A stretch of 64,000 nt of DNA from Astropecten irregularis (Eukaryota; Echinodermata; Asteroidea; Paxillosida; Astropectinidae): positions 1,798,001 through 1,862,000 of the forward strand of contig OZ020244.1 in NCBI GenBank assembly GCA_963971285.1, read 5' to 3'. Within the stretch, counting starts at the first letter, position 1, and each line of letters starts with the position of its first letter. A program made the translations under genes and the position numbers. This document shows, piece after piece, positions 1 through 44,277 of the stretch. The notes beneath the pieces were generated by a model, which worked only from the letters and a program-made list of their open reading frames with translations, searched no databases and was not told the origin of the DNA.

Positions 1-279
1 TCAGAAGACAGCGACGATGATTTCTTCATTAGGAATGCGTCCGGGGTCCCTGCACGACGACCAGGGGACCATGCGGCTGAGTGGGGCCAAATCATGATCG
101 AGAATGACAAGCTCCAGGACGCCATCGACCGAGGCCAGCTTTCTGATGACTCCACCATTTCGAATCAGAGTGTGGCATCCAAGAGGAGCCTCTCCACCTC
201 CCTGTCGGATGAACACTTTGTCGAAGTCAACAGAAAGAAGAAGAAGCAGCTGAAGAACCGAGCCATAAGCAAAGAGTGA
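1..279 (+). CDS. LINE ORF1 (gag-like), C-terminal end, cut by window edge
   Basis: The frame is open from base 1 to a stop at 277-279 (92 residues visible). It has an acidic serine-rich stretch (SEDSDDDFF), a middle part beginning MIENDKLQD, and a lysine-rich tail (NRKKKKQLKNR). The same C-terminus ends the antisense ORF1 copies at 8695, 11871 and 18858, where the upstream part with three CCHC knuckles can be read. It is therefore the RNA-binding ORF1 of the non-LTR retrotransposon whose ORF2 starts 52 bases downstream in another frame. The N-terminal part lies outside the window. Confidence 0.88.
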   Translation, partial: SEDSDDDFFIRNASGVPARRPGDHAAEWGQIMIENDKLQDAIDRGQLSDDSTISNQSVASKRSLSTSLSDEHFVEVNRKKKKQLKNRAISKE

Positions 280-331
280 CTTTTATTTCTCTCCGTTCAC
301 ATTTTGTAAATTTGTCTTTATTGCATTTTTC

Positions 332-3300
332 ATGGCTACCATTTGTGTTTCCACTTTAAATGTTAATGGTCTAAGGAATTCTGTTAAACGCAACCAAATC
401 TTTGATTCATGTAAAGGGGTTGACATTTTACTTTTACAGGAAACTCATGCCTGTAGCTATGCTGAAGCCCGAGCATGGGAAAGGGGAATTAAAAGTAAGG
501 GGTTCTGGTCCTTTGGCTCCTCCTCGAGCCGTGGGGTTGCAATCTTATTATCCAATAAGTATTCCTGGTCACCTACCGACTATTACCGTGACAATGAAGG
601 GCGTATTACTTCTGTTACCATCACCCTGCCTGGTACACAATCCAAAGTTCGTATTGTTAATTGTTATGCACCTAACGACCCTAGACATCGGCCTGATTTC
701 TTTCGTAAAAACCTAGTAGAACATTTCAGGGGCACGAGGCACATTATCCTGGGCGGTGATTTCAACTGTTATGCTAACTTGAATCTTGATCACAAACATG
801 GTAGTGTATCTAAGCATTATAACGGCACGGCAGGTTCCATTGAGTTGCATAAAAGCCTTAGTGATTTTGGCCTTACTGACTGCTGGCGCACGCAAAATCC
901 TCAAGAAAGGCGCTTTACTTGGCATAACAAAGCAAACACGCAAGCTTCTCGTCTCGACAGAATATACATAACTCCTGAGCTTTCAAATGGCTCTACGCAT
1001 TCCATTGAGTCTTTCCCCCTGTCTGACCATGACATGGTTTCTGCTCATATAACTGGTGGTATTAAATATTCTGGTAAAGGGGTCTGGCGGTGTAATGCGA
1101 ACCTTTTGGGCCAAGAGTCTTTTCGGGAGACTATCAGTTCTGAATGGTGTAATTGGAGGAAAAACAAACCCTTCTTCAATAATGTGCTGCACTGGTGGGA
1201 CAGGGGAAAAACTCAACTTAAGAAAACTATCATTAGTTTCTCTTCTCGGGCTGCCAAGGATAAGAATTTAGAACGGAAGAAGCTCCTGAAAGATTTAAAT
1301 GTTTTGCAGAAACGGTTAGACAGCGGGGACACGGCATGTACAGAGGAATTCAACCAAATCCGGTCCAAAATAACTGACATGTCCTCCACAGGACACAGCA
1401 ACGGCTCCCGCAATTTCTGCAGCTCAAAGATTAAGGGAGAAAACGTGGATCCTGGTTTTTTTGAGAAAAATCCTGACGACAAACGTATGCAAAGTCTTGT
1501 AGGCCCAGATGGCAGCGCTATCACTGACCCTTTGGAAATGTCTGCAGCCTGCCGTCAGTATTATAAAGATCTGTACACTGCCACCCCTGTTGAACAAACC
1601 GACATTAATTTTATTTTGAATAAAATTGACAAGTCTTTATCCGATGAAGATGGCCAGTCTTTAGAAGAACCTATCACCTTAAATGAAGTCAAAGATGCTA
1701 TTTTCAGTATGCAAGCAGACAAATCTCCCGGCTCCGACGGGCTGCCTGCAGAGTTTTACAAAGCTTTTTTCGATGTCCTAGGTCAAGACTTATGTGATGT
1801 GTTAAATTCTTGTTTTGATTATTGTACACTGTCTAATTCTCAGAAAAGTGGGCTTATTACGCTTTTGTTTAAAAACAAAGGCGACCGAGAAGATTTATCT
1901 AACTGGCGGCCGATTTCTCTGTTAAATGTTGATTATAAAATTTTGTCTAAAATCCTAGCTAACAGAACAAGGGGAATCCTGCACAAGATCATTCACACTG
2001 ATCAGACTTGTTCGGTCGCAGGCCGTTCCATTCAAGATAATGGTCATTTACTCCGTAACATTCAGGATTATGTTGAACAAAAAAACTTGGGTGCTGTTTT
2101 TGTATCTCTCGACCAACAAAAGGCTTTTGATAGAGTGAACTGGTGTTATCTGCAGCATGTCTTAAAGAAATTTGGTTTTGGCCCAAACTTTCGGAAATGG
2201 ATAGAAATCTTGTACTCTGACATAAATTCAGCCGTTATTTGCAATCGTAACATCTCTGATACTTTTCCTCTCTCCCGTGGGGTCAGACAGGGATGTCCGC
2301 TCTCCCCACTCCTGTACATTCTTGCCTTAGAACCACTTGGTTGTGCCATCAGATCGGAACCCAAAATTCATGGGGTCAAGCTGCCGGGCGGGGGAGAGGT
2401 CAAACTTTCCATGTATGCGGATGATGCCACACTAATTCTTTCAGATGAAAACTCTGTCATTGAAAGCCTGAAAATGGTCAGGAGATATGAAAATGCTTCT
2501 GGTGCTAAACTCAATCAGCAAAAATGTAACGGTATTTTTCTTGGGAAATGGAAAAACAAAACTTCTGGGCCAGGCGACATTCCCTGGTTATCCTCAACAA
2601 AAATTGTGGGTCACTTTTTTGGCAACGGGGACTTAGCAAACCAAACATGGAATGATAAGTTTAAGGCCCTGGAGAAATCGGTCACATTTTGGGAACAATG
2701 CAAATTGACCCAAAAAGGAAGGGTCGAAGTTGTGAATAAATTCATTTTGTCTCAGATCTGGTATGCGGCCGAGGTCACTCCTCCTCCACGTAAAATGATC
2801 AGTCAGATCAACACTTTGATTTTCAAATTTATCTGGGGTCAAAAAGTGGAGCACATCAACAGAGCAACAATGGTCCTTCCCCCCTCCTTGGGAGGGATGG
2901 GAGTCTTGGATATCAGTAGTAAAATTGCCACTCAACAGTGTGTTCACATCGGTAACATGATTTCTAATAAGTCGGCCAACTGGATTTCCTTAGCTGCATA
3001 TTGGTGCGGGTTCTCCCTCAGAGAAATTGCTCCGAACCTGGCCAGGAATGACCGACCTCATGCTCAAGATATGCCCAAATTTTACCAGTCGGTCATCTTT
3101 CACTACCGTCAGTACAAACATCATATTTCCGATTGGGCCAAAATTAAGAGTAAAAACTTGTACTGTAGCATTAATGAAGAAAAGGAAACGGTACCAAAAA
3201 TCCAAAAAGATCACCCTGGGACTGACTGGACCACTGTGTGGAAAAGAACCCTTTGTAGCAAAGCAACAAATAGAGAATTTTCTTTGAATTTCTTAACGGT

Positions 3301-3667
3301 CCACAATGTTCTTCCCACTGGCGACCGCCTACGGCGCTTTTCAAGTGATCAGGGCACTTGCCCCCATTGTTCTACACTGGAAACCAGGGAGCATTTGTTT
3401 GTTGATTGTAGGGTGGTTGTGCCGGTGGCCCGATGGCTTTGTAGCCGCTTGAGTGGTCTGGGCGGTGTAGGGATCTCCCCCAGTGCGGAGCTCCTGATTT
3501 TCTCTCAACTCAGGAACAATAAGGGGGCGCACACTGAAGCCAAGATGCTAAAGATGTTGAATACATACCGTTCTTCCATTTGGTTTGCTCGAAACAGAGC
3601 AAAATTCCAGCACCAACCCGCTTCTACGACCAACATAATTAATTACATTAAAATTTACGGGACCTAA
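332..3667 (+). CDS. Intact LINE ORF2: APE endonuclease and reverse transcriptase (Tx1/L1-like)
   Basis: This 1111-residue ORF has no stop or frameshift. Residues 1-240 are an APE-type endonuclease: N10/N12 in the first motif, E37 in LLLQETHA, GGDFN (D143, N145), SRLDRIYI (D209) and SDHD (D232, H233). The reverse transcriptase follows, with SLDQQKAFD (D594), RQGCPLSPLLY and catalytic YADD at 695-698. A C-terminal C-x2-C-x7-H-x4-C knuckle occupies residues 1010-1026. This order, together with a CCHC-type ORF1, fits the L1/Tx1 group. By family role it nicks target DNA and copies its own RNA there by target-primed reverse transcription. An intact frame suggests recent activity. The element's 3' end stops inside a U5 snRNA gene, so it may be site-specific. 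Confidence 0.95.
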   Translation: MATICVSTLNVNGLRNSVKRNQIFDSCKGVDILLLQETHACSYAEARAWERGIKSKGFWSFGSSSSRGVAILLSNKYSWSPTDYYRDNEGRITSVTITLPGTQSKVRIVNCYAPNDPRHRPDFFRKNLVEHFRGTRHIILGGDFNCYANLNLDHKHGSVSKHYNGTAGSIELHKSLSDFGLTDCWRTQNPQERRFTWHNKANTQASRLDRIYITPELSNGSTHSIESFPLSDHDMVSAHITGGIKYSGKGVWRCNANLLGQESFRETISSEWCNWRKNKPFFNNVLHWWDRGKTQLKKTIISFSSRAAKDKNLERKKLLKDLNVLQKRLDSGDTACTEEFNQIRSKITDMSSTGHSNGSRNFCSSKIKGENVDPGFFEKNPDDKRMQSLVGPDGSAITDPLEMSAACRQYYKDLYTATPVEQTDINFILNKIDKSLSDEDGQSLEEPITLNEVKDAIFSMQADKSPGSDGLPAEFYKAFFDVLGQDLCDVLNSCFDYCTLSNSQKSGLITLLFKNKGDREDLSNWRPISLLNVDYKILSKILANRTRGILHKIIHTDQTCSVAGRSIQDNGHLLRNIQDYVEQKNLGAVFVSLDQQKAFDRVNWCYLQHVLKKFGFGPNFRKWIEILYSDINSAVICNRNISDTFPLSRGVRQGCPLSPLLYILALEPLGCAIRSEPKIHGVKLPGGGEVKLSMYADDATLILSDENSVIESLKMVRRYENASGAKLNQQKCNGIFLGKWKNKTSGPGDIPWLSSTKIVGHFFGNGDLANQTWNDKFKALEKSVTFWEQCKLTQKGRVEVVNKFILSQIWYAAEVTPPPRKMISQINTLIFKFIWGQKVEHINRATMVLPPSLGGMGVLDISSKIATQQCVHIGNMISNKSANWISLAAYWCGFSLREIAPNLARNDRPHAQDMPKFYQSVIFHYRQYKHHISDWAKIKSKNLYCSINEEKETVPKIQKDHPGTDWTTVWKRTLCSKATNREFSLNFLTVHNVLPTGDRLRRFSSDQGTCPHCSTLETREHLFVDCRVVVPVARWLCSRLSGLGGVGISPSAELLIFSQLRNNKGAHTEAKMLKMLNTYRSSIWFARNRAKFQHQPASTTNIINYIKIYGT

Positions 3668-3903
3668 ACCTGCTGTTAGGTGAGCTTTGAACTACGGTCA
3701 GGGGCGACTAATTTTGAGGTTTTTGTAAAGGACCATTTACTGTTGACGTCAATATTTCAATGTACTGTTTGAACTTGATGCGTTTTTTTGCTCTTTATAA
3801 AAGGGGATACATTGTTGTGTTATTTCTTTGTATAAACAGATGACTTGTGTTTGTATTGAAAATGTCATGTTTTATTTATAAGAATAAAACATTTTTGAAA
3901 ACC
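3668..3903 (+). other. LINE 3' UTR and 3' end with terminal hairpin
   Basis: This 236-nt non-coding end carries AATAAA at 3883-3888. A perfect 8-bp hairpin (GTTTTATT, loop TATAAG, AATAAAAC; 3869-3890) lies just before the end. There is no poly(A) or microsatellite tail: the element runs through GAAAACC directly into U5 snRNA sequence. The same hairpin is kept in antisense copies near 9994-10015, 13358-13380 and 20149-20171. A conserved 3' hairpin could be what the reverse transcriptase recognises; that is inference. Confidence 0.8.
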
Positions 3904-3988
3904 CCTTTTACTAAAGATTTCCGTGCAGAGGAACGGCTTAATGAGTCTATAGACTAATTTTTTCCTGCCCAGTTGAAAAACTGGGCTA
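3904..3988 (+). pseudogene. U5 snRNA, 3' half only (copy 1, interrupted by LINE)
   Basis: This stretch begins in loop I (CCTTTTACTAAAG) and continues through the 3' side of stem I, the palindrome AGTCTATAGACT, the Sm site AATTTTTTCC and the terminal hairpin CCCAGTT-GAAA-AACTGGG. The 3'-box-like AAACTAAAGATAGA follows. The 5' half and promoter are missing and replaced by the LINE 3' end, so this copy cannot make normal U5 RNA. If the 5' half lies left of the LINE, this is an insertion and not a deletion. Confidence 0.93.
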
Positions 3989-4125: not shown

Positions 4126-4149
4126 GATTTCTATATTCAGTTTTGGTTT

Positions 4150-5044
4150 TTAAATTGGTTTATTGATACACAACAATGTCACTCAAAATCACAAATATTT
4201 ACAGAAAGTAGGTTGAACAAAAGGAGTAAACGAGCTTCATCCCTACAGCCAAATTGCCAATTGACCTCTACTTAATACTTCCCCTCAAAAGACACAGTAA
4301 GTTGTGGGTATTAAATCTCGCCCGTCAAATTTCGTCATTGCGGGTCAGCCAGACCGTCCGACGATAAAGGCTCAGTTTTTTTAAGCCATTTCAAACTCCA
4401 GGTTTTTTATCAAACCTTCTCGAACAGGGAGAACAATAGGAAATCAAAACTAGGCGGGTATGGATTTGTCTACCCAGGTTGGCACCCAACCACTGAGGCA
4501 CAGGACGCACCACGCCCCACTCAGCAAAGAGATGCTCAGTCGTCTCCAGCTGGGCGCAGTGTGGGCATAAACCAGGATCCTTACTCTGCTTTCGCAGTCT
4601 GTGACCGGTAGAAAGGACACGGTGTACCACCTTAAAATTCAGTGAAATCTGCTGATTGGATGATTGTATGCATAGAGATCGCTTCCACACAGTAGGCCAA
4701 TCTTTACCAGGCCACTTGTGCTCTACCCTGGGTTTTGTATCTTTTGACTCTATTAGAGCCGTCAAAAGCCCCCTTAACCCCACCACATGCCAATCTGCCA
4801 CCAGATCCCTGTTCTTGCGAAAGTTCCCCAGCACTGAACGGTAGAAAGCCTGTTGCGAATCGCAATGCTGCCGACTGTCCCGAATTTGGCAGAGCACGGT
4901 GTCTCTCGCGGCCGTACTCAGCGGTCTGGTCACAAGACATGAAGCACGACCGTGAAGACACTTGGCCACTCCCCACTTCACAGATTCAGGATGGTGCGAG
5001 TCGAAAGCCAGGTACTGGTCGGTGTGCGTAGGCTTGCGATGCAC
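4150..5044 (-). pseudogene. LINE ORF2 C-terminal part and 3' end, second subfamily (antisense)
   Basis: On the minus strand an open frame at 5044-4391 matches the ORF2 C-terminal third, including GKDWPTVWKRSL, LNFKVVHRVLSTGHRLR and CPHCAQLETTEHLFAEW. The last Cys of the C-x2-C-x7-H-x4-C knuckle is replaced by Trp. It differs enough from the intact element's PGTDWTTVWKRTL region to be a second subfamily. The 3' UTR reads down to an AATAAA near 4160. The endonuclease and catalytic RT are missing, so it is a dead 5'-truncated copy. Confidence 0.75.
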
Positions 5045-5671: not shown

Positions 5672-5794
5672 ATCACTCTGGTTTCTCTGCATTCGTATAA
5701 ATCTTTCGCCTTTTACTAAAGATTTCCGTGTAGAGGAACAGCTTAATGAGTCTATAGACTAATTTTTTTGCTGCTCAGTTGAAAAACTGGGCTA
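5672..5794 (+). ncRNA. RNU5: U5 spliceosomal snRNA, copy 2
   Basis: U5 is the snRNA of the U5 and U4/U6.U5 snRNPs; loop I holds the exon ends during splicing. Seen here: 5' ACTCTGGTTTCTCTGCA, stem AAATCTTT/AAAGATTT around loop CGCCTTTTACT, the 3' strand TAGAGGAAC, a Sm site with seven T, and a GAAA-capped terminal hairpin. The 5' side of that hairpin reads CTCAGTT, giving one G-U pair. The length of about 122 nt fits metazoan U5. The 3'-box-like AAACCCAAAGATAGA follows at 5801. Promoter signals are present, so the gene is probably functional. Confidence 0.96.
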
Positions 5795-5954: not shown

Positions 5955-6927
5955 CAGTTTTGGTTTTTAAATTGATTTTATTATTGATTCCAATAATCCA
6001 ACCGTACACAACAATGTCACTCAAAAACACAAATATTTACAGAAAGTAAAAAAAGGTTGAACAAAAGGAGTAAACGTGCTTCATCGATCCCTACAGCCAA
6101 AACCCCAATTGGCATCTACCTAATACTTCCCCTCAAAAGACACAGTAAGTTGTGGGTATTAAATCTTCGCCCGTCAAATTTGGCCTCATCATTGAGAGTC
6201 AGCCAGACCGTCCTACGAGAAAGGCTCAGTTTTTTAGCTGTTTCAAACTCCAGTTTTTGGGATCAAACCTTCTCAAACAGAGAGAACCATAGGAAGTCAA
6301 AACTAGGTGGGTATGGATTTGTCTACCCAGGTTGGCACCCAACCACTGAGCCACAGGGCACATCACGCAGCACTCAGCAAAGAGATGCTCAGTAGTCTCC
6401 AGCTGGGTGCAATGTGGGCATGAACCAGGATCCTTACTCTGCTTTTGCCGTCTGTGACCAGTAGACAGGACACCGTGAACCACCTTAAAATTAAGTGAAA
6501 TCTGCTGATTGGATGATTTTATGCATAGAGATCGCCTCCACACAGTAGGCCAATCTTTACCAGGCTCTACCCTGGGTTTTGTGTCTTTTGACTCTATTAT
6601 AGAGCTGTCAAAAGCCTCCTTAACCCCACCACGTCGGGCGTGCCAGGCAAATGGTCGGTGGCCAAGGACTTGGCCATACTGCGTAAGAGCGGTGAAAACG
6701 GGGCTGTCTGCCAATTCATGCGGGCCATTGAAAATGTTGACAAAAGCCACGGACATCGTCCTCCCAATGTCGAAACCTTTCTCTGATTTACCATCAGCTT
6801 TGAAACACAGTTTCTCCTTGGCAACCCTGCTTTTCAGGGTTACACACTTGGCATCATTGAGGTGCTGGACACACTGGACATCACTCTCCTTTACATGATT
6901 TACCCGAACAAATCCTGCCAAGGCCAC
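5955..6927 (-). pseudogene. Internally deleted LINE: ORF1 N-terminal region joined in frame to ORF2 C-terminus
   Basis: The minus-strand frame 6927-6226 (233 residues) starts as ORF1 (NHVKESDVQCVQHLNDAK, ADSPVFTALTQYGQVLGH). At about 6630-6640 it switches to ORF2 C-terminal sequence (SFDSSI..IESKDTKPRVE, GKDWPTVWRRSL, CPHCTQLETTEHLFAEC). The join removes the ORF1 knuckles, endonuclease and RT but keeps one open frame. The ORF2 part is of the same subfamily as the copy at 4391. It cannot be autonomous. The open fusion may be chance or a young deletion. Confidence 0.75.
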
Positions 6928-7693: not shown

Positions 7694-7815
7694 ATCACTC
7701 TGGTTTCTTTGCATTCGTACAAATCTTTCGCCTTTTACTAAAGATTTCCGTGCAGAGGAGCAGCTTAATGAGTCTATAGACTAATTTTTTGCTGCCCAGT
7801 TGAAAAACTGGGCTA
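7694..7815 (+). ncRNA. RNU5: U5 spliceosomal snRNA, copy 3
   Basis: The copy is complete: 5' ACTCTGGTTTCTTTGCA, invariant loop I CGCCTTTTACT inside AAATCTTT/AAAGATTT, the 3' strand TGCAGAGGAGC, palindrome AGTCTATAGACT, Sm site AATTTTTTG, and an 8-bp GAAA hairpin GCCCAGTT/AACTGGGC. The C-to-T change in the 5' strand (TTTCTTTGCA) still pairs as a G-U wobble with TGCAGAGG. The 3'-box-like AAACCCAAAGATAGA lies about 10 nt after the hairpin. Confidence 0.97.
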
Positions 7816-7877: not shown

Positions 7878-7949
7878 TTTGGATAATTGAATGACATACC
7901 AGTGGTATGGTATTCCAGGGGTTGCAGGTTCATATCCTGCTCCTGTCAA
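7878..7949 (+). repeat. tRNA-like SINE relic downstream of U5 copy 3
   Basis: The T-arm-like stem is GCAGG-TTCATAT-CCTGC, with CATACCAGTGGTATG just upstream and CTCCTGTCAATTTTTC at the end. Confidence 0.55.
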
Positions 7950-8029
7950 TTTTTCTATGTTTCAGTTTCAATGACATTAAATTGATCAACATGTAGATGG
8001 AATGAAGAAGAAAGCACAGTAACTCAGTA

Positions 8030-9935
8030 CATATTCAATATTTGACAACATCAGCAAAAAACAGTAATCTTTACAAAGAACATTAACATAACAAATTTAA
8101 CATTTTATGTGATGGAGGAGTGACCTCAGCCACATACCAGATCTGAGACAATAAACTTGTTTACAACTTCCACCCTTTCTTTTTGAGTCAATTTGCATTG
8201 CTCTCACAACTTGACAGATTTCTCCAGGGAATTAATCTTATCATTCCATGTTTTATTCGCTAACTTTCGGTTGCAACAAAGTAACTCACAATTTTTCCTA
8301 ATGTCTCACCATATCAGTTCAGTGTGCAAACCTTTTTCCACAAATGTCACCTGTGTGGACTCTACAATACGCCCTTCATTGTCACTGTAATAGTCAGTAG
8401 GTAACCAGGAATACTTTAATTGGATAATAAGATTGCAACCCCACGGCTCGAGGAGGAGCCAAAGGACCAGAACCTCTTATTTTAATTCCCCTTTCCCATG
8501 CTCGGGCTTCAGCATAGCTACACGCATGAGTTTCCTGTAAAAGTAAAATATCAACCCCTTTACATGAATCAAAAATTTGGTTGCGTTTAACAGAATTCCT
8601 TAGACCATTAACATTTAAAGTGGAAACACAAATGGTAGCCATGAAAAATGCAATAAAGACAAGACTATAAAATGTGAACGGAGAGAAATAAAAGTCACTC
8701 TTTGCTTATGGCTCGGTTCTTCAGCTGCTTCTTCTTCTTTCTGTTGACTTCGACAAAGTGTTCATCCGACAAGGAGGTGGAGAGGCTCCTCTTGGATGCC
8801 ACACTCTTATTCGAGATGGTGGAGTTATCAGAAAGCTGGCCTCGGTCGATGGTGTCCTGGAGCTTGTCATTCTCGATCATGATTTGGCCCCACTCGGCCA
8901 CATGATCCCCTGGTCGTCGTGCAGGGACCCCGGACGCATTCCTGATGAAGAAATCATCGTCGCTGTCTTCTGATGGGGGGGGGGGGGTGGCGGCAGAGGG
9001 CTTCGGTGTCTTCTGCTTGGGCTGCTTTGGTTCCGCCGCCAAAGCTCCAGAGTAGGACTTGGGGGCGTCCGGTGGGGTAGGGTTGGCCTTGGCCTGTTTG
9101 GGGTCTGTCTTGGTGGTGCGCAGACGGGGGGATGGGCGCAGACCCACTGCCTCATCCCAGAAGCCTGGTGGATTTGGCTCATCTGGTCCGCTGTCGTCAC
9201 TGGTGTCCGAGAGGTTTCTCGGCTTTTTGGCCTTGGTACTCGGACGCTTCTCATCTGCTGGGTTTGGGCGTGCGGCTGTGGCAGAAGAACTGGGGCACTC
9301 ACTTGGGGGGTGGCCGGTACATTTACAAATGTCACACCTTTTGGGGTTGGGAGAGGTTGTGCTGCGGTGTCCACGTCCTACACAGTTGTAGCACACTATC
9401 GAGGTGCAGCTGGCTGCCAGGTGACCAGGCCCGCCGCATCGACGGCACGTCTTCTGTTGGCCCTCATATTGAACATACAACTGGAACAGGCCGACCTTGA
9501 TGTATGATGGGATGGGGGACTTCAGGATCATCCGAAAATGTCTGATACCGTTCTCCCAGTCGGGCGTGCCAGGCCAATGGCCGCGTCGGTGGCCGAGGAC
9601 TTGGCCATATACTGTGTGAGAGCAGTGAACACGGGGCTGTCTGCCAATTTTTGCGGGGCATTGAAAATGTTGACAAACCCACGGACATGTCAGCCTCCGA
9701 TGTTGAAACCTTTCTCTGATTAACCATCAGTTTTGAAACACACATTTCTCCTTGCTAGCTCTGCTCTTCAGCGTTACACACCATTTGGCATCATTGAGGT
9801 GCTGGACGCACTGAACCTCACTCTCCTTTACATGATTTCTTAGTAACCAGAACAAATCATTAGGGTGGGTTATTTCCTCCAGGTGAAGATTCACACTTAG
9901 CTCACGGTTGAGCCTTGAAATGGCCATCTTACAGC
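8030..9935 (-). pseudogene. Antisense LINE copy with ORF1 and fragments of ORF2 (unit 3)
   Basis: Read on the minus strand, ORF1 begins near 9918 (MAISRLNRELSVNLHLEE). It is frameshifted near 9727 and 9530 and then continues at 9531-8695. That part has three knuckles: CRRCGGPGHLAASC, CYNCVGRGHRSTTS (last Cys lost) and CDICKCTGHPPSEC. A Ser/Pro-rich linker and the lysine-rich end follow. ORF2 starts at 8642 (MATICVSTLNVNGL, LLLQETHACSY) but is cut after about 80 residues. A zinc-finger fragment and a piece of the RT thumb (about 8290-8100) follow. Most of the endonuclease and all of the catalytic RT are missing, so this is a non-autonomous relic. Confidence 0.82.
8298..8360 (-). pseudogene. 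C2H2 zinc-finger fragment between ORF2 pieces (unit 3)
   Basis: The minus strand reads VHTGDICGKRFAH, stop, TDMVRH. This matches a C2H2 linker plus finger with the first Cys lost. The related copies at 11475, 18466 and 22213 read RFAYRTDMVRHQ or similar. Confidence 0.5.
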
Positions 9936-9969
9936 CGAAATCCTTAATGACAAAACTTGATGCTAATAT

Positions 9970-10016
9970 TTTAGTAGAAGGGTTTTCAAAAATGTTTTAT
10001 TCTTATAAATAAAACG
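9970..10016 (-). repeat. LINE 3' tail followed by U5 loop I-like 12-mer (unit 3)
   Basis: On the minus strand the LINE terminal hairpin (10015-9994) and TTTTTGAAAACC run into CCTTCTACTAAA (9981-9970), which is 11/12 identical to U5 loop I CCTTTTACTAAA. An ORF1 leader and ORF1 follow at once. It looks like the join of two head-to-tail insertions. Confidence 0.6.
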
Positions 10017-10024
10017 TCACAAAT

Positions 10025-10874: not shown

Positions 10875-10996
10875 ATCACTCTGGTTTCTTTGCATTCGTA
10901 TAAATCTTTCGCCTTTTACTAAAGATTTCCGTGCAGAGGAGCAGCTTAATGAGTCTATAGACTAATTTTTTGCTGCCCAGTTGAAAAACTGGGCTA
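10875..10996 (+). ncRNA. RNU5: U5 spliceosomal snRNA, copy 4
   Basis: The copy is complete. It shows ACTCTGGTTTCTTTGCA, loop I CGCCTTTTACT with its flanking 8-bp stem, TGCAGAGGAGCAG, AGTCTATAGACT, Sm site AATTTTTTG and hairpin GCCCAGTT-GAAA-AACTGGGC. It is nearly identical to copy 3, including the G-U variant in stem I. The 3'-box-like AAACCCAAAGATAGA follows. Confidence 0.97.
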
Positions 10997-11130: not shown

Positions 11131-11474
11131 ATTTTTCTATGTTTCAGTTTCAATGACATAAAATTGATCTACATGTAGATGGAATGAAAAAGAAAGCACA
11201 GTAGTTCAGTACATATTCAATGTTTGACAACATCAGCAGAAAACAGTCATCTTTACAAAGAACATTGACATAACAAATTTAACATTTTATGTGGTGGGGT
11301 GACCTTAGCCACATACCAGATCTGAGACAATGAACTCGTTTACAACTTCCACCCTTCCTTATTAGTCGATTTGCATTGCTCTCACAACTTGACAGATTTC
11401 TCCAGGGAATTAATCTTATCATTCCATGTTTTATTCGCTAACTTTCGGTTGCAACAAAGTAACCCACAATTTTT

Positions 11475-11538
11475 CCTGATGTCTCACCATATCAGTTTGG
11501 TATGCAAACCTTTTTCCACAAATGTCACCTGTGTGGAC
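11475..11538 (-). pseudogene. C2H2 zinc-finger fragment between ORF2 pieces (unit 4)
   Basis: The minus strand reads VHTGDICGKRFAYQTDMVRH without a stop. The first Cys of the finger is missing. Confidence 0.5.
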
Positions 11539-12148
11539 TCTACAATACGCCCTTCATTGTCACTGTAATAGTCAGTAGGTAACCAGGAATACTTATTGGA
11601 TAATAAGATTGCAACCCCACGGCTCGAGGAGGAGCCAAAGGACCAGAACCTCTTATTTTAATTCCCCTTTCCCATGCTCGGGCTTCACCATAGCTACACG
11701 CATGAGTTTCCTGTAAAAGTAAAATATCAACCCCTTTACATGAATCAAAAACTTGGTTGCGTTTAACAGAATTCCTTAGACCATTAACATTTCAAGTGGA
11801 AACACAAATGGTAGCCATGAAAACTGCAATAAAGACAAACTTATAAAATGTGAACGGAGATAAATAAAAGTCACTCTTTGCTTATGGCTCGGTTCTTCAG
11901 CTGCTTCTTCTTCTTTCTGTTGACTTCGACAAAGTGTTCTTCCGACAGGGAGGTGGAGAGGCTCCTCTTGGATGCCACACTCTGATTCGAGATGGTGGAG
12001 TCATCAGAAAGCTGGCCTCTGTCGATGGTTTCCTGGAGCTTGTCATTCTCGATCATTATTTGGCCCCACTCGGCCGCATGATCCCCTGGTCGTCGTGCAG
12101 GGACCCCCGACACATTCCTGATGAAGAAATCATCGTCGCTGTCTTCTG

Positions 12149-12358
12149 ATGGGGGGCAGTGGCGTCACCAAGGGGGGGCCAGGGGGGGCACGTGCCCCCC
12201 CTGGAAAACCTCGTGCCCCCCCGCGTGCCCCCCCATTTGAGATTTGGGTTGGTGAAAAAAATATAATATATATTGTAGCGGTGCCCCCCCCAACAATTGC
12301 TAGTGCCCCCCTTGTGCCCCCCCAGACTCAAAAGTCTGGTGACGCCACTGATGGGGGG
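12149..12358. mobile_element. Non-autonomous hAT MITE with 8-bp target duplication
   Basis: The element spans 12157-12350 (194 bp). Its perfect 14-bp terminal inverted repeats (CAGTGGCGTCACCA) are flanked by ATGGGGGG on both sides (12149-12156 and 12351-12358). An 8-bp duplication and CAGTGGCG ends are hallmarks of hAT transposons. The interior is G/C-tract rich and non-coding. Units 3 and 6 have an uninterrupted site. Confidence 0.92.
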
Positions 12359-13333
12359 GTGGCGGCAGAGGGCTTCGGTGTCTTCTGCTTGGGCTGCTTT
12401 GGTTCCGCCGCCAAAGCTCCAGAGTAGGACTTGGGGGCGTCCGGTGGGGTAGGGTTGGCCTTGGCCTGTTTGGGGTCTGTCTTGGTGGTGCGCGGACGGG
12501 GGGATGGGTGCAGACCCACCGTCTCATCCCAGAAGCCTGGTGGATTTGGCTCATCTGGTCCGCTGTCGTCACTGGTGTCCGAGAGGTTTCTCGGCTTTTT
12601 GGCCTTGGTACTCGGACGCTTCTCATCTGCTGGGTTTGGGCGTGCGGCTGTGGCAGAAGAACTGGGGCACTCACTTGGGGGGTGGCCGGTACATTTACAA
12701 ATGTCACACCTTTTGGGGCTGGGAGAGGTTGTGCTGCGGTGTCCACGTCCTACACAGTTGTAGCACACTATCGAGGTGCAGCTGGCTGCCAGGTGACCAG
12801 GCCTGCCGCATCGACGGCACGTCTTCTGTTGGCCCTCATATTGAACATACAACTGGAACGGGCCGACCTTGATGTATGATGGGATGGGGGATCATCCGAA
12901 AATGTCTGATACCGTTCTCCCAGTCGGGCGTGCCAGGCCAATGGCCGCGTCGGTGGCCGAGGACTTGGCCATATACTGTGTGAGAGCAGTGAACACGGGG
13001 CTGTCTGCCAATTTTTGCGGGGCATTGAAAATGTTGACAAACCCACGGACATGTCAGCCTCCAATGTTGAAACCTTTCTCTGATTAACCATCAGTTTTGA
13101 AACACACATTTCTCCTTGCTAGCTCTGCTCTTCAGCGTTACACACCATTTGGCATCATTGAGGTGCTGGACGCACTGAACCTCACTCTTCTTTACATGAT
13201 TTCTTAGTAACCAGAACAAATCATTAGGGTGGGTTTTTTCCTCCAGGTGAAGATTCACACTTGGCTCACGGTTCAGCCTTGAAAAGGTCATCTCACAGCC
13301 GAAATCCTTCATGACAAAACTTGATTCTAATAT

Positions 13334-13380
13334 TTTAGTAGAAGGGGTTTTCAAAAATGTTTTATTCTTATAAATAAAAC
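13334..13380 (-). repeat. LINE 3' tail followed by U5 loop I-like 12-mer (unit 4)
   Basis: The hairpin and GAAAACC are followed by CCTTCTACTAAA (13345-13334 on the minus strand), then the ORF1 leader, as in units 3 and 6. Confidence 0.6.
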
Positions 13381-13384
13381 GTCA

Positions 13385-13613
13385 CAAATGACAGTGTTAA
13401 CCCTGTGGTGAATCACCAAGTGACAAAAGCTTCATCACAAATACCACACCTGATGACTGGAGTAGATGTGGACCAATCGATGTGTTTTCAATTTACCTCT
13501 TCTTGAAAAAGCTTTAGCACAAACATTACAGGTTTCTGGCCAGTGAAGACCATCTGATGATGTCGTACCATGTCAGTTCTGTAAGCATATCTTTTTCCAC
13601 AAATGTTATGTTT
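13385..13613 (-). pseudogene. C2H2 zinc-finger gene fragment (unit 4)
   Basis: This is the best-kept copy. A damaged finger ends in TGQKP. Then comes a perfect C2H2 finger, CNVCAKAFSRRGKLKTH-RLVH (C-x2-C-x12-H-x3-H), then a frameshifted third finger (CGICDEAFVTW). Confidence 0.7.
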
Positions 13614-14230: not shown

Positions 14231-14352
14231 ATCACTCTGGTTTCTCTGCATTCGCATAAATCTTTCGCCTTTTACTAAAGATTTCCGTGCAAAGGAACAG
14301 CTTAATGAGTCTATTGACTAATTTTTTCCTGCTCAGTTGAAAAACTGGGCTA
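14231..14352 (+). ncRNA. RNU5: U5 spliceosomal snRNA, copy 5 (variant, possibly decaying)
   Basis: Loop I and its stem are intact, but there are changes elsewhere. The 3' strand reads TGCAAAGGAAC, which puts a C-A mismatch opposite TTTCTCTGCA. The palindrome is broken (CTATTGACT), the Sm site is followed by CC instead of G (AATTTTTTCC), and the terminal hairpin has CTCAGTT on its 5' side. The 3'-box-like element is AAATCAAAAGATAGA. With the altered PSE this is the most likely copy to be weak or silent, though it may be a true variant U5. Confidence 0.92.
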
Positions 14353-14559: not shown

Positions 14560-16185
14560 ACAGAAACTCAGTACATATTCAATGTTTGACAACATCAGCA
14601 GAAAACAGTTATCTTTACAAAGAATATTTACATAACAAATTTACATTTTACTTGGTGGAGGAGTGACCTCAGCCACATACCACATCTGAGACAATAAACT
14701 CGTTTACAACTTCCACCCTTCCTTTTTCAGTCAATTTGCATTGCTCCCACAACTTGACATATTTCTCCAGGGCATTAATCTTATCATTCCATGTTTTGTT
14801 CGCTAACTTTCGGTTGCAACAAAGTGACCCACAATTTTTGCAATCTTAGCAGTCTTGGAAGAGAAGCTAATGATATTTTTCTTACATTGAGTTTTCCTCT
14901 GTCCCACTAGTGCAACACATTATTTAAAAAGGTCTTGTTTCTTCCAGTTACCGGTACACCATTCAGAAGTGTCAATCTTCCGCAAAAAGTCTTGACTTTA
15001 TAGGATGTCCACATTACAACGCCAAACCTCTTGGCCGGAATTTTTGATACCACTAGTTATGTGAGCAGAAACCACATCATGGTTGGACAGGGGAAAAGAC
15101 TCAGCGGAATTCTTGGAGCTGCTTGAAAGCTCGGGAGTTATGTAAATTCTGTCGAGGTTAGTGGCTTGTGTCTTGGCTTTTTATGCCAAGTAAAGCGTCT
15201 TTCTTGGGGGGTTGTATGTGTGCCAGCAGTTGATTAGACCAAAATCACTAAGGCTTTTATGCAATTAAGACCCACTGTCTCATCCCAGAAGCCTGGTGGT
15301 TTGAGCTTGTCTGGTCCACTGTCATCACTGGTGTCCAAGAGGTTCTGTGGTCTGGGCTTTTTGGCCTTGGTGCTCGGATGCTTGTCTTCTGATGGGTTTG
15401 GTTGTGCAGCTGTTTTGGCGGAGGAACTGGGGCACTCACCCAGGGGGTGGCTGATGCATTTACAGATGTCACACCTTTTGGGGTTGGGACAGGATATGCT
15501 GCTGTGTCCACGTCCTCCACAGTTGTAGCAAACCACCGAGGTGCAGCTGGCTGCCAGGTGGTCAAGCCCGCCACCGCGGTGGCACATCTTCTGTTAATAG
15601 TGTTTGCCCTCATACTGGACATATACGGTAACTGGAACGGGCCGAACCTTGATGTACGATGGGATGGGGGACTTCACGATCATCTGAAAATGTCTGATGC
15701 CATTCTCCCAGCCTTGCCAGCCTGGCCAATGGCCGCGTCGGTGGCCAAGGACTTGGCCATACTGCGTAAGAGCGGTGAACATGGGGCTGTCTGCCAATCC
15801 ATACTAGGCGTTGAAGGTGTTGACAAAAGCCACGGACGTGTCAGCCTCAATGTCGAAACCTTTCTCTGATTAACCATCAGCTTTGAAACACACAGTTTCT
15901 CCTTGGCAGCTGTGCTCTTCAAGATTATACACCATTTGGCATCATTGAGGTGCTGGACACACTGGACATCACTCTCCTTTACATGATTTCTTAGTAACCC
16001 GAACAAATCCTTAGGGTGGGTTTTTCCTCCAGGTGAAGATTCACACTAAGCTCACGATTGAGCCTCGAAAAGGCCATTCTTATAAATAAAATTGACATTT
16101 TCAATACGAGCACAAGTCATCTGTTTATACAATGAAATAACACAACAATGTATTCTTTTTATACAGAGCAAAAATGAATCAAAGA
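14560..16185 (-). pseudogene. Antisense LINE fragments: 3' UTR, ORF1, endonuclease piece, RT thumb piece (unit 5)
   Basis: On the minus strand, 16185-16078 matches the LINE 3' UTR (bases 3798-3885 of the intact element). It joins directly to the ORF1 start (about 16075, AFSRLNRELSVNLHLEE). ORF1 reaches the knuckles (CYNCGGRGHSSISC, CDICKCISHPLGEC) and stops near 15270. There it joins the middle of the ORF2 endonuclease (15250-14990), followed by unassigned sequence and the RT-thumb piece (about 14830-14650). Its deletion points differ from those of units 3, 4 and 6. Confidence 0.75.
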
Positions 16186-16189
16186 AAAG

Positions 16190-16620
16190 AAAGCACAGTA
16201 ACTCAGTAGATATTCAATGTTTGACAACATCAGCAGAAAACAGTCATCTTTACAAAGAACATTTACATAACAAATTTACATTTTACTTGGTGGAGGAGTG
16301 ACCTCAGCCACATACCAGATCTGAGACAATAAACTCGTTTACAACTTCCACCCTTCCTTTTTGAGTAAATTTGCATTGCTCCCACAACTTGACAGATTTC
16401 TTCCGGGGCATTAAACTTATCATTCCATGTTATGTTCACTAACCCTCCTTTGTCAAAGAAGTGACCCATATGGCAAATAGCATCTTCTATCTCATTTATG
16501 GTGACGACTGGTTATCTTCATGGGATAATGACTTATCAATTTTGTTCAAGAGAAACTTGGTTTGTTTAACCAGGACGGCAGTGTACAGATCCTTATGTAC
16601 TGACGGCAGGCCAAAGACAT
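16190..16620 (-). pseudogene. Further antisense ORF2 fragments
   Basis: 16262-16450 matches the RT-thumb region (TWNDKFNAPEEICQ). 16500-16610 matches the segment around bases 1545-1660 of the intact ORF2 (KDLYTAVLVKQTKFLLNKID on the minus strand). These are separate deletion products. Confidence 0.6.
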
Positions 16621-16985
16621 TTCTTAAGGGTCTATGACAGCCACCTTGTCGGAACTAGCCAGCCCAGTGTCCGCCTTGAGCCTCTCCACATAGGTCAGTT
16701 TTGACCTACCCCTACTGGTCTTTCCATCCCTCATGTTGGAATTCAATATCTTCCTCAGCTTGTGCCAAGCCACCCAAGCCTTGGATTTCTGCACTTGGAT
16801 GTCTCTCTTTGAGTCATGAATCCACGACCCAATATATTAGAATATTTGGAGAGTGTTTCACACCAGCGTGGGGGTGTATGGTGCTCTTTGAAGCTGCTTT
16901 TGTCTGAGAATTCTTTGGTACAAATACTACGGGCTAATGTTGTGGATTGGTTGTGAAGTCTCTGGCGACGTTATGAAAATGATCC
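16621..16985. other. Unassigned insertion in unit 5 spacer
   Basis: This stretch is absent from the other units. No clear coding frame, inverted termini or RNA gene was recognised. Confidence 0.35.
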
Positions 16986-17864: not shown

Positions 17865-17986
17865 ATTACTCTGGTTTCTCTACATTCGTATAAATCTTTC
17901 GCCTTTTACTAAAGATTTCCGTGTAGAGGAACAGCTTAATGAGTCTATAGACTAATTTTTTGCTGCCCAGTTGAAAAACTGGGCTA
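17865..17986 (+). ncRNA. RNU5: U5 spliceosomal snRNA, copy 6
   Basis: The copy is complete. It has ACTCTGGTTTCTCTACA pairing with TGTAGAGGAAC: the A is matched by a T on the opposite strand, a compensatory change relative to GCA/TGC in other copies. Loop I, palindrome, Sm site AATTTTTTG and hairpin GCCCAGTT-GAAA-AACTGGGC are intact. The 3'-box-like AAATTCAAAGATAGA follows. Confidence 0.97.
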
Positions 17987-18169: not shown

Positions 18170-20110
18170 TGGAATGAAGAAGAAAGCACAGTAACTCAGT
18201 ACATATTCAATGTTTGACAACATCAGCAGAAAACAATTATCTTTACAAAGAACATTTACATAACAAATTCACATTTTACGTGGTGGAGAAGTAACCTCAA
18301 CCACATACCAGATCGGAGACAATAAACTTACAACCTTGACCCTTCTTTTTGAGTCAATTTGCATTGCTTCCACTTTACTGATTTCTCCAGGGCATTAATC
18401 TTTTTATCATTCCATGTTTTGTTCACTTACTTTCCGCGGTTGCAACAAAGTGACCCACAATTTTTCCTGATGTCGTACCATATCAGTTCGGTATGCAAAC
18501 CTTTTTCCACAAATGTCACCTGTGTGGACTCAACAATATGCCCTTGTCACGGTAATAGTCCGTAGGTGACCAGCAATACTTATTGGTTAATAAGATTGCA
18601 ACCCCACGGCTCGAGGAGGAACCAAAGGACCAGAACCTCTTATTTTAATTTATCTTTCCCATGCTCGGGCTTCAGCATAGCTACACGCATAAGTTTCCTG
18701 TAAAAGTAAAATATCAACCCCTTTACATGAATCAAAAATTTGGTTGCGTTTAACATAATTCCTTAAACCAATAACATTTAAAGTGGAAACACAAATGGTA
18801 GCCATGAAAAATGCAATAAAGACAAACTTATAAAATGTGAACGGAGAGAAATAAAAGTCAATTTTTGCTTATGGCTCGGTTCTTCAGCTGCTTCTTCTTC
18901 TTTCTGTTGACTTCGACAAAGTGTTCATCCGACAGGGAGGTGGAGAGGCTCCTCTTGGATGCCACACTCTTATTTGAGATGGTGGAGTCATCAGAAAGCT
19001 GGCCTCGGTCGATGGTGTCTTGGAGCTTGTCATTCTCGATCATGATTTGGCCCCACTCGGCCGCATGATCCCCTGGTCGTCGTGCAGGGACCCCCGACGC
19101 ATTCCTGATGAAGAAATCATCGTCACTGTCTTCTGATAGGGGGTGGCGGCAGCGGGCTTCGGCGTCTTCTGCTTGGGCTGCTTTGGTTCCGCCGCCAAAG
19201 CTCCAGAGTAGGACTTGGGGGCGTCCGGTGGGATAGGGTTGGCCTTGGCCTGTTTGGGGTTTGTCTTGGCGGTGCGTGGACTGGGGGATGGGCGCAGACC
19301 CACCGCCTCATCCCAGAAGCCTAGTGGCTTTGGCTCATCTGGTCCGCTGTCGTCACTGGTGTCCGAGAGGTTTCTCAGCTTTTTGGCCTTGGTACTCGGA
19401 CGCTTCTCATCTGCTGGGTTTGGGCGTGCGGCTGTGGCAGAAGAACTGGGGCACTCACTTGGGGGGTGGCCGGTACATTTACAAATGTCACACCTTTTGG
19501 GGTTGGGACAGGTTGTGCTGCGGTGTCCACGTCCTCCACAGTTGTAGCACAATATCGAGGTGCAGCTGGCTGCCAGGTGACCAGGCCGGCCTCATCGACA
19601 GCACATCTTCTGTTGGCCCTCATACTGGACATACAACTGGAACGGGCCGACCTTGATGTATGATGGGATGGGGGACTTCAGAATCATCCGAAAATGTCTG
19701 ATACCGTTCTCCCAGTCGGGCGTGCCAGGCCAATGGCCGCGTCGGTGGCCGAGGACTTGGCCATATACTGTGTCAGAGCAGTGAACACGGGGCTGTCTGC
19801 CAATTTTTGCGGGGCATTGAAAATGTTGACAAACCCACGGACATGTCAGCCTCCGATGTTGAAACCTTTCTCTGATTAACCATCAGTTTTGAAACACACA
19901 TTTCTCCTTGCTAGCTCTGCTCTTCAGCGTTACACACCATTTGGCATCATTGAGGTGCTGGACGCACTGAACCTCACTCTCCTTTACATGATTTCTTAGT
20001 AACCAGAACAAATCATTAGGGTTGGTTTTTTCCTCCAGGTGAAGATTCGCACTTGGCTCACGGTTCAGCCTTGAAAAGGTCATTTCACAGCCGAAATCCT
20101 TAATGACAAA
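18170..20110 (-). pseudogene. Antisense LINE copy with ORF1 and ORF2 fragments (unit 6)
   Basis: It has the same breakpoints as units 3 and 4. ORF1 runs from 20083 (MTFSRLNREPSANLHLEE) with frameshifts near 19883 and 19660. Knuckles include CYNCGGRGHRSTTC, complete here, and CDICKCTGHPPSEC. The ORF1 C-terminus is at 19043-18858. The endonuclease start lies at 18806-18570, then the zinc-finger fragment and the RT thumb. No hAT insertion is present at the unit 4 site. Confidence 0.82.
18466..18529 (-). pseudogene. C2H2 zinc-finger fragment between ORF2 pieces (unit 6)
   Basis: The minus strand reads VHTGDICGKRFAYRTDMVRH, then Q, with no stop. This is the cleanest copy of this fragment. Confidence 0.55.
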
Positions 20111-20125
20111 ACTTGATGCTAATAT

Positions 20126-20171
20126 TTTAGTAGAAGGGTTTTCAAAAATGTTTTATTCTTATAAATAAAAC
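20126..20171 (-). repeat. LINE 3' tail followed by U5 loop I-like 12-mer (unit 6)
   Basis: The hairpin, TTTTTGAAAACC, then CCTTCTACTAAA (20137-20126 on the minus strand), as in units 3 and 4. Confidence 0.6.
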
Positions 20172-20179
20172 GTCACAAA

Positions 20180-21040: not shown

Positions 21041-21161
21041 ATCACTCTGGTTTCTTTGCATTCGTATAAATCTTTCGCCTTTTACTAAAGATTTCCGTGC
21101 AGAGGAACAATTAATGAGTCTATAGACTAATTTTTTGCTGCCCAGTTGAAAAACTGGGCTA
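21041..21161 (+). ncRNA. RNU5: U5 spliceosomal snRNA, copy 7
   Basis: Complete except for a 2-nt deletion after the 3' strand of stem I (GAGGAACAATTAATGAG against GAGGAACAGCTTAATGAG in most copies). Loop I, Sm site AATTTTTTG and hairpin are intact. The 3'-box-like AAATCCAAAGATAGA follows. The deletion is in the single-stranded linker before the AGTC palindrome, so it may be tolerated. Confidence 0.95.
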
Positions 21162-21844: not shown

Positions 21845-23470
21845 TCAGGAATACTTATTGGATAATAAGATTGCAACCCCACGGCTCGAGGAGGAGCCGA
21901 GCCAAAGGAACAATAAGGGGGTGCACACTGAAGCCAAGATGCTGAAGATTTTGACAACATCAGCAAAAAAAGTTTTTTACAAAGAACATAATTTACATTT
22001 ACATAACAAAATTTACATATACGTTGCGGAGGAGTGACCTCAGCCACATACCACATCTGAGACAATAAACTCGTTTACAACTTCCACCCTTCCTTTTTCA
22101 GTCAATTTGCATTGCTCCCACAACTAGACATATTTCTCCAGGGCATTTATCTTATCATTCCATGATTTGTTCGCTATTTTTGGGTTGCAACAAAGTGACC
22201 CACAATTTTTCCTGATGTCGTACAATATCAGTTCGGTATGCAAACCTTTTTCCACAAATGTCACCTGTATGGACTCTACAATACATCCTTCATTGTCACT
22301 GTAATAGTCAGTAGTGACCAGGAATACTTATTGGATAATAAGATTGCAACCCCATGGCTCGAGGAGGAGCTAAAGGACCAGAACCCTTTACTTTTAATTT
22401 CTCTTTCCCATGTTTGGGCTTCAGCATAACTACACGCATGGGTTTCCTGTAAAAGTAAAATATCAACCCCTTTACATGAATCAAAAATTTGATTACGTTT
22501 AACAGAATTCCTTAAACCAATAACATTTATGAAGTAGAAACACAAATGGTAGCCATGAAAAATGCAATAAAGACAAGACTATAAAATGTGAACAGGATTA
22601 AATGGTATTAAATGGCTCGGTTCCTTAGTATGCTTCTTCTTCATTCTGATGACCTCAACAAAGTGTTCATCTGACAGGGAGGTAGAGAGGCTCGATGCAC
22701 TTTGGTTCGAGATGGTGGAGTCATCTGAAGTCTGGTCCCGGTCAAAGACTTTTTGTAGCTTGTCATTTTTCATCATAATTTGGCCCCACTTAATAGTCAG
22801 GTGGTCCCCTGGTTGTCGTGCAGGGACCCTGGATGCGTTCCTGATGAAGAACTCATCGTCGCTGTCTGCTGATGAGAGGACGGCGGCGACAGGCTTCAGT
22901 GTCTTCTGCTTGGGCTGCTTTGGTTCGGCCGCCAATGCTCCAGAGTAGGACTTGGGGGTGTCCGTTAGGGTAGGGTTGGCTTTGCTATGTTTGGGGTTTG
23001 TTGTAGCGGTGCGTGGACAGGGGGGTTGTAGCATGCAAACCACCGAGGTACAGCTGGCTGTCAGGTGGCCAGGCCTGCCACAGCGGCGGCACATCTTCTG
23101 TTGGCCCTCATACTGGACGTATAACTGGAACGGGCCGACCTTGATGTATGATGGGATGGGGACTTCAGGATCATCCGGAAATGTCTGATGCCGTTCTCTC
23201 AGTCGGGCGTGCCAGGCCAATGGCCGCATCGGTGGCCAAGGACTTGGCCATACTGCGTAAGAGCGGTGAAAACGGGGCTGTCTGCCAATTCATGCGGGGC
23301 ATAGAAAACGTTGACAGAAGCCACGGAGATGTCAGCCTCGATGTCGAAACCTTTCTCTGGTTTACCATCAGCTTTGAAACACACAGTTTCTCCTTGGCAG
23401 CTCTGCTCTACAGTGTAACACACCACTTGGCATCATTGAGGTGCTGGACACACTGGACCTCACTGTCCTT
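21845..23470 (-). pseudogene. Diverged antisense LINE fragments (unit 7)
   Basis: A piece of the endonuclease start (21845-21900) is joined head-to-head to an ORF2 3' fragment in + orientation (21903-21955). RT-thumb, zinc-finger and endonuclease pieces follow on the minus strand (22020-22550). Then comes an ORF1 copy from about 23450 to 22590 with large deletions: only CRRCGRPGHLTASC remains of the knuckles. This copy is more diverged than those in units 3, 4 and 6. Confidence 0.7.
22213..22275 (-). pseudogene. C2H2 zinc-finger fragment (unit 7)
   Basis: The minus strand reads HTGDICGKRFAYRTDIVRH, with the leading Val replaced. Confidence 0.45.
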
Positions 23471-23475
23471 TACAT

Positions 23476-23531
23476 GTGATACACTGAGCTACATTTTGCA
23501 TTTTACTCTTCACTCTGGTTTCTCTGCATTC
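23476..23531 (+). pseudogene. U5 snRNA 5' fragment and proximal promoter (copy 8), right end of array
   Basis: GTGATACACTGAGCTACATT and the start of U5 (CACTCTGGTTTCTCTGCATTC) are present. The sequence then switches to unrelated DNA before loop I. To the left, ORF1 sequence joins at a short ACATG microhomology, so the PSE and DSE are deleted. Confidence 0.85.
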
Positions 23532-41699: not shown

Positions 41700-42420
41700 G
41701 TAAGTTACTTCACTACATTACTTACTCAACTACACCACCTTACTTAACTTACATTACTTACTTTCAAGTAAGTAATGTAAGTTAAAACTTAAACTACTTA
41801 CTTAACTACGCCACCTTACTTAACTTACATTACTTACTTTCAAGTAAGTAATGTAAGTTAAAACTTAAGCTACTTACTTAACTACGACACCTTACTTAAC
41901 TTACATTACTTACGTTTAAGTAAGTAATGTAAGTTAAAACTTACGTTACTTACTTAACTACACCACCTTACTTAACTTACTTACGTTTAAGTAAGTAATG
42001 TAAGTTCAAACTTAAGCTACTTACTTAACTACACCACCTTACTTAACTTACATTACTTACTTTCAAGTAAGTAATGTAAGTTAAAACTTAAGCTACTTAC
42101 TTAACTACACCACCTTACTTTACTTACATTACTTACGTTTAAGTAAGTAATGTAAGTTAAAACTTAAGCTACTTACTTAACTACACCACCTTACTTAACT
42201 TACATTACTTACTTTCAAGTAAGTAATGTAAGTTAAAACTTAATCTACTTACTTAACTACACCACCTTACTTAACTTACATTACTTACGTTTAAGTAAGT
42301 AATGTAAGTTAAAACTTAAGCTACTTACTTAACTGCACCACCTTACTTAACTTACATTACTTACTTTTGAGTAAGTTATGTAAGTAAAAGTAAGTTTTCA
42401 CTGACTTTTACTTACTCCCC
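41700..42420. repeat. 76-bp hairpin satellite, about nine units
   Basis: CTACACCACCTTACTT words start at about 41731, 41807, 41883, 41959, 42030, 42106, 42182, 42258 and 42334. The spacing is 76 bp (71 once). Most units hold an inverted repeat TTAACTTACATTACTTAC with its complement around a 6-nt loop. The loop is TTTCAA or GTTTAA. Confidence 0.9.
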
Positions 42421-43989: not shown

Positions 43990-44162
43990 GTCACCTCCAC
44001 AATGAGTGATATCAGTCACCTATTTTCAACAGGTTTTTAAATGGAAGTAGTTGTTGATTTTTTAGGCTAGGCCAGGCAGATTTCTTTTACCCAGTATTCT
44101 GCAGGTAAGCTGCAGTCACTCCACAAATTCTCATCTAGGAGAAGGATATCACCACATCACAG

Positions 44163-44245: not shown

Positions 44246-44277
44246 GTAGGATGAGCACAATTGCTGTGCCACACAAT

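Follow-up and report, generated by a model that had tools for sequence, protein, structure and literature searches.

A full-length LINE in loop I of a U5 snRNA gene of Astropecten irregularis and its relatives in the U2 array

Background

A stretch of 64,000 nucleotides from the sea star Astropecten irregularis (contig OZ020244.1 of assembly GCA_963971285.1; G000:C1:1798001-1862000 in a genome of 475.7 Mb), hereafter the window, holds most of a long interspersed nuclear element (LINE) that interrupts a U5 small nuclear RNA (snRNA) gene inside loop I. Position 1 is the first letter of the window and negative positions lie to its left. Judged from its sequence, this is very probably a full-length, apparently intact LINE of the Tx1/Keno kind that specifically targets U5 loop I, the placement in Tx1/Keno being putative and resting on a U2-inserted relative of the same genome. 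U5 specificity is proposed because one complete insertion and one older junction are found, backed by the confinement of the family to U5 loci.

Results

The interrupted gene. The 3' untranslated region (UTR) of the LINE ends at about 3903 and runs straight into CCTTTTACTAAAGATTTCCGTG, a 22-mer that occurs seven times in the window, always exactly (up to three mismatches being allowed), and not once in 100 shuffled sequences. A preliminary description of this DNA, made from the letters alone, had already noticed this passage without poly(A) into loop I in the orientation of U5, and the following U5 bases 37-120 confirm it; it had also expected a U5 half to the left of the LINE, and U5 1-48 is found there with a 12-bp target-site duplication (TSD), CCTTTTACTAAA (Table 1). 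Bases 3-48 of the left flank are 98% identical to U5, and its first two bases match other genes of the array. The LINE is in sense orientation relative to the interrupted gene. When the LINE and one 12-mer are removed, the flanks rejoin into a U5 gene with promoter and 3' flank; this rejoined site aligns as a single piece to the unit of the U5 gene at 5673 (query bases 56-1047, 88%), and the multiple alignment of U5 units has no gap at the join. Loop I is, we presume, the most conserved part of U5.

The element. The LINE measures 4,892 bp (-988..3903, G000:C1:1797012-1801903), its end positions being uncertain by about two bases since one or two C's are common to both sides of the 3' junction, and its 5' portion was read from the 10 kb upstream of the window (L011). 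The extent given in the preliminary description was right in the start of the second open reading frame (ORF2) at 332, but the LINE reaches beyond the window to -988 and ORF1 starts at -947. The 1111-amino-acid endonuclease and reverse transcriptase (RT) frame reported there is indeed complete: ORF2 is open from 332 to 3667, with Pfam matches to Exo_endo_phos (residues 8-233, 3.1e-15), RVT_1 (residues 518-735, 3.4e-37) and zf-RVT (3.2e-07). The motifs NVNG (10), QETH (36), GDFN (142), SDHD (231), YADD (695) and CCHC (1010), which are taken to include the catalytic residues, are all present. An endonuclease of the apurinic/apyrimidinic (AP) type at the N-terminus and an RT in a single ORF make this a member of the APE-type (L1/Tx1-group) non-long-terminal-repeat retrotransposons. 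In ORF1, zf-CCHC is matched in two stretches (2.9e-08) within the first 315 residues, in the part of ORF1 left of the window, and Pfam gives no zf-CCHC match in the ORF1 part at window 1-279.

The copies of the LINE in the array, compared with the intact one, gave ratios of nonsynonymous to synonymous substitutions (dN/dS) of 0.07-0.34 in 11 of 11 comparisons (seven of ORF1, four of ORF2), computed without stop codons and gapped codons on copies that are not mutually independent and of which some have stops or frameshifts. ORF1 appears to have been under selection between the insertions of these copies, and the dN/dS values together with the open ORFs point to a LINE lineage active not long ago.

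Table 1. Features of the interrupted U5 locus and of the U5 array
Feature	Position	Strand	Basis or remark
Left U5 part, U5 1-48	-1036..-989 (outside window, directly before LINE base 1)	+	alignment
12-bp TSD CCTTTTACTAAA = U5 37-48	left -1000..-989; right 3904..3915	+	perfect repeat
5' leader, 41 bp, before ORF1	-988..-948 (left of window)	+	
ORF1, 408 aa (amino acids), CCHC zinc-knuckle protein	-947..279 (1..279 within window)	+	Pfam zf-CCHC
ORF2 (1111 aa) with AP-type endonuclease, RT (YADD) and a CCHC motif at the C-terminus	332..3667	+	Pfam, motifs
3' UTR without poly(A) tail	3668..3903	+	sequence
Terminal stretch TGTTTTATTTATAAGAATAAAACATTTT, hairpin possible	3868..3895	+	common to U2-inserted C29 element; C25 element with 3 mismatches
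Right U5 part of interrupted gene, U5 37-120	3904..3987	+	96% identical to an array U5
Full-length U5 snRNA gene	5673..5793	+	Rfam
Full-length U5 snRNA gene	7695..7814	+	Rfam
Decayed copies of U5 LINE family, head to tail	8101..10021	-	LINE 3' end / CCTTCTACTAAA (9970-9981) / LINE 5' end
Full-length U5 snRNA gene	10876..10995	+	Rfam
Decayed copies of U5 LINE family	11283..13386	-	junction 12-mer 13334-13345
Full-length U5 snRNA gene	14232..14351	+	Rfam
Decayed fragments including 3' UTR 16076-16174 without terminus	14644..16641	-	DNA matches
Full-length U5 snRNA gene	17866..17985	+	Rfam
Decayed copies of U5 LINE family	18272..20177	-	junction 12-mer 20126-20137
Full-length U5 snRNA gene, one base missing near alignment position 69	21042..21160	+	Rfam
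Decayed fragments, array right edge	22020..23476	-	adjoining 55-bp piece 21906-21960 on +

The U5 array and its older copies. The tandem arrangement of U5 genes assumed in the preliminary description is seen directly, because six full-length genes follow the interrupted one, all on the + strand, spaced 2.0 to 3.6 kb and scoring 86.8-97.1 bits (Rfam gathering score 40). A genome search for U5 returned 15 matches, composed of these six genes, the two halves and seven matches elsewhere, on C8, C16 (three), C9, C12 and C10 (81%). All seven U5 units carry in the multiple alignment, about 270 bp before the gene, a ATGCAAAT box, which we take to be the octamer of snRNA promoters.

The LINE fragments in the array spacers are all on the reverse strand save one 55-bp piece, and are 73-96% identical in DNA to the intact copy (one 53-bp piece, 100%). 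In three units the LINE 3' terminus passes into CCTTCTACTAAA, which matches 11/12 of the U5 TSD, and this in turn directly into a LINE 5' end, the base being that of the intact copy. Such a junction would be expected if a second element had inserted into U5 sequence next to a first; because all three units share it, the three are probably copies of one old event, multiplied with the array unit. Insertion at the same base of the target is represented by one full case and this older tandem junction with 11/12 of the TSD. Remnants of U5 beside the reverse copies were sought by local alignment of three array stretches and the C10 locus with the two U5 halves; these eight comparisons gave one weak score (15, as against 13 in 30 shuffles) and no convincing U5 half.

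Some further observations concern the array. Downstream of each U5, at a distance of about 110-150 bp (e.g. 7920-7955), stands a sequence resembling the 3' half of a transfer RNA (tRNA) (GGTTGCAGGTTCAAATCCTGCTCCTGTCA, with minor variation), and ARAGORN calls no tRNA in the window. At the right edge (23471-23531, +) a truncated U5 promoter with the first ~20 U5 bases adjoins a reversed LINE fragment.

Distribution in the genome. All match counts that follow are lower bounds and include the intact copy. The 3' UTR matched DNA in at least five places, five of five in the U5 array; the first 689 bp matched at least eight, seven of them in the array and one on C10, where a diverged U5 lies 2.1 kb upstream of it; and ORF2 (positions 1000-3667) matched at least 14, of which 11 are in the array, two on C29 and one on C25. 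The exact 5' junction pattern occurs in four places, all in the array; nine further places with one mismatch were set aside as chance, being fewer than the 18 of a reversed control. The U5 target suggested in the preliminary description is borne out by what follows the five 3' UTR matches, namely U5 in one and a U5-like 12-mer in three, the fifth being unreadable since the last 18 UTR bases are missing. The pattern of the 3' hairpin, with up to three mismatches, was found in six places as against one in the reversed control, standing once before U5, three times before the U5-like 12-mer, once before U2 and once, on C25, before other DNA. Among the matches listed, the C29 and C25 relatives are the only copies at the DNA level that lie away from U5 loci, and no ORF2 match was found near the seven U5 genes outside the array (with 10 kb around five of them and 3.1 kb around two).

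The protein search listed 42 matches, most of them distant (1,291 candidates, 41 scored), and the surroundings were inspected for eight elements of the 42. No RNA gene reaches the Rfam gathering score 3' of three more distant relatives (L042-L044); at L041, weak Rfam microRNA matches below the gathering scores lie within an inverted repeat and were taken as chance. Four pattern matches to possible relatives in IMG/VR were obtained and none was confirmed. The piece on C10 (L014:1629-2800, -) is ORF1-like, 81% identical in DNA and frameshifted; it starts directly after the splice-acceptor-like TTTTTTCTTAG and stops near the ORF1 stop.

Relatives in the U2 array. By protein, the nearest relative found outside the U5 array is an element on C29, with 68% identity to the U5 element in the RT and 55% in the endonuclease domain, and a second C29 element (L040) has 50% identity in the RT. 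At the DNA level the C29 matches reach 67-68% identity over ~800-950 bp, and there are also short pieces, of which the closest have 92-95% over 37 bp. The first C29 element ends in a near-identical terminal hairpin, AATAAAGCATTTTAAAAACC, followed directly by GTATCTGTTCTT of a U2 gene (Rfam U2, 111.7 bits); no U2 5' half was identified there, and its 5' side is rearranged. The U2 part begins at base 36 of the Rfam model; for Utopia in Phytophthora U2 PMC4640811 gives base 39, stating that the Keno 3' flank is the same, so that the two numberings differ.

Around these elements, G000:C29:11252977-11289798 carries ten exact copies of a 29-base U2 segment in 37 kb. Eight of nine pieces taken around the other 29-mers reach the Rfam U2 score, six with 160-170 bits, one with 133.7 (altered 5' part) and one with 75.8 (ending at about base 67), and the ninth piece holds the L040 junction. 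These matches identify a U2 array. Both L040 and the first C29 element end at the same U2 base, and L040 is followed by ~29 U2 bases and then by LINE-like sequence. At another point, L048 (G000:C29:11252800-11253150, -), a U2 gene is cut short after about base 67, where other DNA follows; this gene may represent the left flank of an insertion into U2, which with the 29-base U2 remnant of L040 would fit a TSD of ~30 bases.

RT trees of nine and seven taxa, all from this genome and rooted with L044, unite the U5 element and the first C29 element in one clade (SH-like approximate likelihood ratio test/ultrafast bootstrap 99.7/100 in the larger tree, 99.6/100 in the smaller), with L040 next outside (98.3/100 and 98.2/99). 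The U5 element branches first within this clade, and the branch uniting its other members has support of 93.1/86 (larger tree) and 65.9/72 (smaller tree). If L040 is U2-specific by descent, U2 would be the older target and U5 the derived one; a U2-specific (Keno-type) ancestor that switched targets is the probable origin of the U5-specific lineage.

Other features of the window. At 4143-4900 and ~5960-6630 (-), downstream of two U5 positions, there are reversed remnants of the ORF2 C-terminus that belong to a different family, related and older (39-54% amino acid identity). The 3' end of this family (..TTTAAAAACC) resembles that of an element at 78 kb of C1 (L046) and is followed by AAAACTGAA, which is not snRNA. 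Closely spaced repeats occur at 44156-45492 and 41714-42389, the former with extended open frames on both strands, which are unlikely to be genes. An Rfam tRNA match of 40.3 bits at 55778-55842 (-) was not called by ARAGORN.

Discussion

Several observations weigh against a U5-specific element. Just one copy carries both U5 halves, and all is read from a single assembly, without reads. Few independent insertions can be counted, namely that of the intact copy and that of the old tandem junction, and the reverse copies in the array show the 12-mer alone and run in the direction opposite to that of the U5 genes. Outside the array, all seven U5 genes are uninterrupted. A similar 3' end is present in the C25 relative, which adjoins neither U2 nor U5, and the relative at 78 kb of C1 has no snRNA flank. 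The specificity of the family is in fact not uniform, because these two members have other flanks and the 3' end of a member on C17 (L045) was not found.

Much of this would also suit a LINE of loose specificity that landed in U5 once by chance and whose other copies came from duplication of array units: the array copies share breakpoints and likely go back to one or two old events, one copy alone has both U5 halves, and the C25 and C1 elements have no snRNA flank. We hold this to be improbable, since an insertion at random would hit U5 with a probability of about 3.5e-6 (14 x 120 bp in 475.7 Mb), the older junction repeats 11/12 of the same TSD between LINE 3' and 5' ends, the nearest relative ends in U2, and the confinement of DNA-level copies to U5 loci, save the C29 and C25 relatives, speaks against it among the matches listed. 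The close kinship and common 3' end with the C29 element ending in U2 suggest instead an ordinary, U2-specific Keno with a rare off-target insertion in U5. This has a slightly smaller probability still: among the matches listed no close DNA copy of the U5 LINE family lies in the U2 array, the older copies also have the U5 12-mer, and the two targets differ (GTATCTGTTC in U2 versus CCTTTTACTA in U5). That assembly or recombination joined LINE and U5 artificially is hardly credible; it is a single assembly without reads, and both U5 and LINE are repeated in the region, but the TSD is perfect, element ends are present on both sides and the flanks rebuild one U5 unit.

For a LINE specific to U5 loop I, insertion could proceed by target-primed reverse transcription. 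The AP-type endonuclease would make a bottom-strand nick in the U5 gene, between its bases 36 and 37, and the freed 3' end would prime reverse transcription from the 3' hairpin and AAAACC terminus of the RNA; a cut of the top strand after base 48 would then give the TSD. The U5 promoter, standing beside the first 48 bases of the gene, probably drives the element RNA, and the tandem array may supply spare U5 genes, so that single insertions would be tolerated.

Among known elements, human LINE-1 gives the best structural matches to ORF2 (ORF2p, PDB 8sxt, residues 4-860, E 6e-93), in agreement with the L1-like features noted in the preliminary description, and the two proteins share the NVNG, QETH, GDFN, SDH and ADD motifs. 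L1 insertions are poly(A)-tailed and dispersed, whereas the U5 element has no tail and sits in U5. Membership in the Utopia/R2 type is contradicted by the APE domain and by the much weaker R2 matches (3.5e-23 versus 6e-93). Keno belongs to the Tx1 clade, and its original description is said to be that of Kojima and Fujiwara in 2004. The U5 element clusters with an APE element ending in U2, which, like the second C29 element, is taken to be a Keno on account of its U2 target. Its intact copy is inserted in U5 loop I with the 12-bp TSD CCTTTTACTAAA, whereas Keno is inserted in U2 snRNA genes.

According to the accessible part of PMC4640811, Keno inhabits U2 snRNA genes of frogs, fish, lancelet and hydra, and shares with the U5 element an AP-type endonuclease and insertion into an snRNA gene; Utopia also has an snRNA target, with tandem insertions reported, but differs in its restriction-like endonuclease and U2 target, the U5 element having APE and U5. 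Dada-U1 and Dada-U6 likewise lie within snRNA genes with short TSDs, but, as far as the available parts of PMC3706591 and PMC8869645 tell, they are DNA transposons with a DDE transposase and without reverse transcriptase. The 2015 paper names, in that same part, snRNA-gene transposons of U2 (Keno, Utopia) and of U1 and U6 (Dada) (PMC4640811). The term 'U5 snRNA' occurs in none of the main texts of PMC4640811, PMC3706591 and PMC8869645, nor 'U5 gene' in PMC4640811 and PMC8869645, nor 'Dada-U5' in PMC8869645. One other paper contains 'U5 snRNA gene', solely within a cited reference about genes of sea urchins. The preliminary description knew of no U5-targeted element, and none specific to U5 was found among retrotransposons in the open literature, searched partly with narrow term combinations and with most subscription journals and Repbase outside its scope.

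Conclusions

We lean, with some reserve, towards a history in which a U5-specific lineage descended from a U2-specific Keno, the two persisting in one genome in their respective snRNA arrays and with the same 3' RNA hairpin; the U5 element would then be the first U5-specific retrotransposon known. Few transposons of snRNA genes are known, and a U5 target fills a gap among them; it also suggests that an element can persist on a gene present in only about 14 copies. The presence of the U5 element and its U2 relative in one genome makes the change of target by a LINE endonuclease directly testable through domain swaps in vitro, which bears on LINE-based gene insertion at defined sites.

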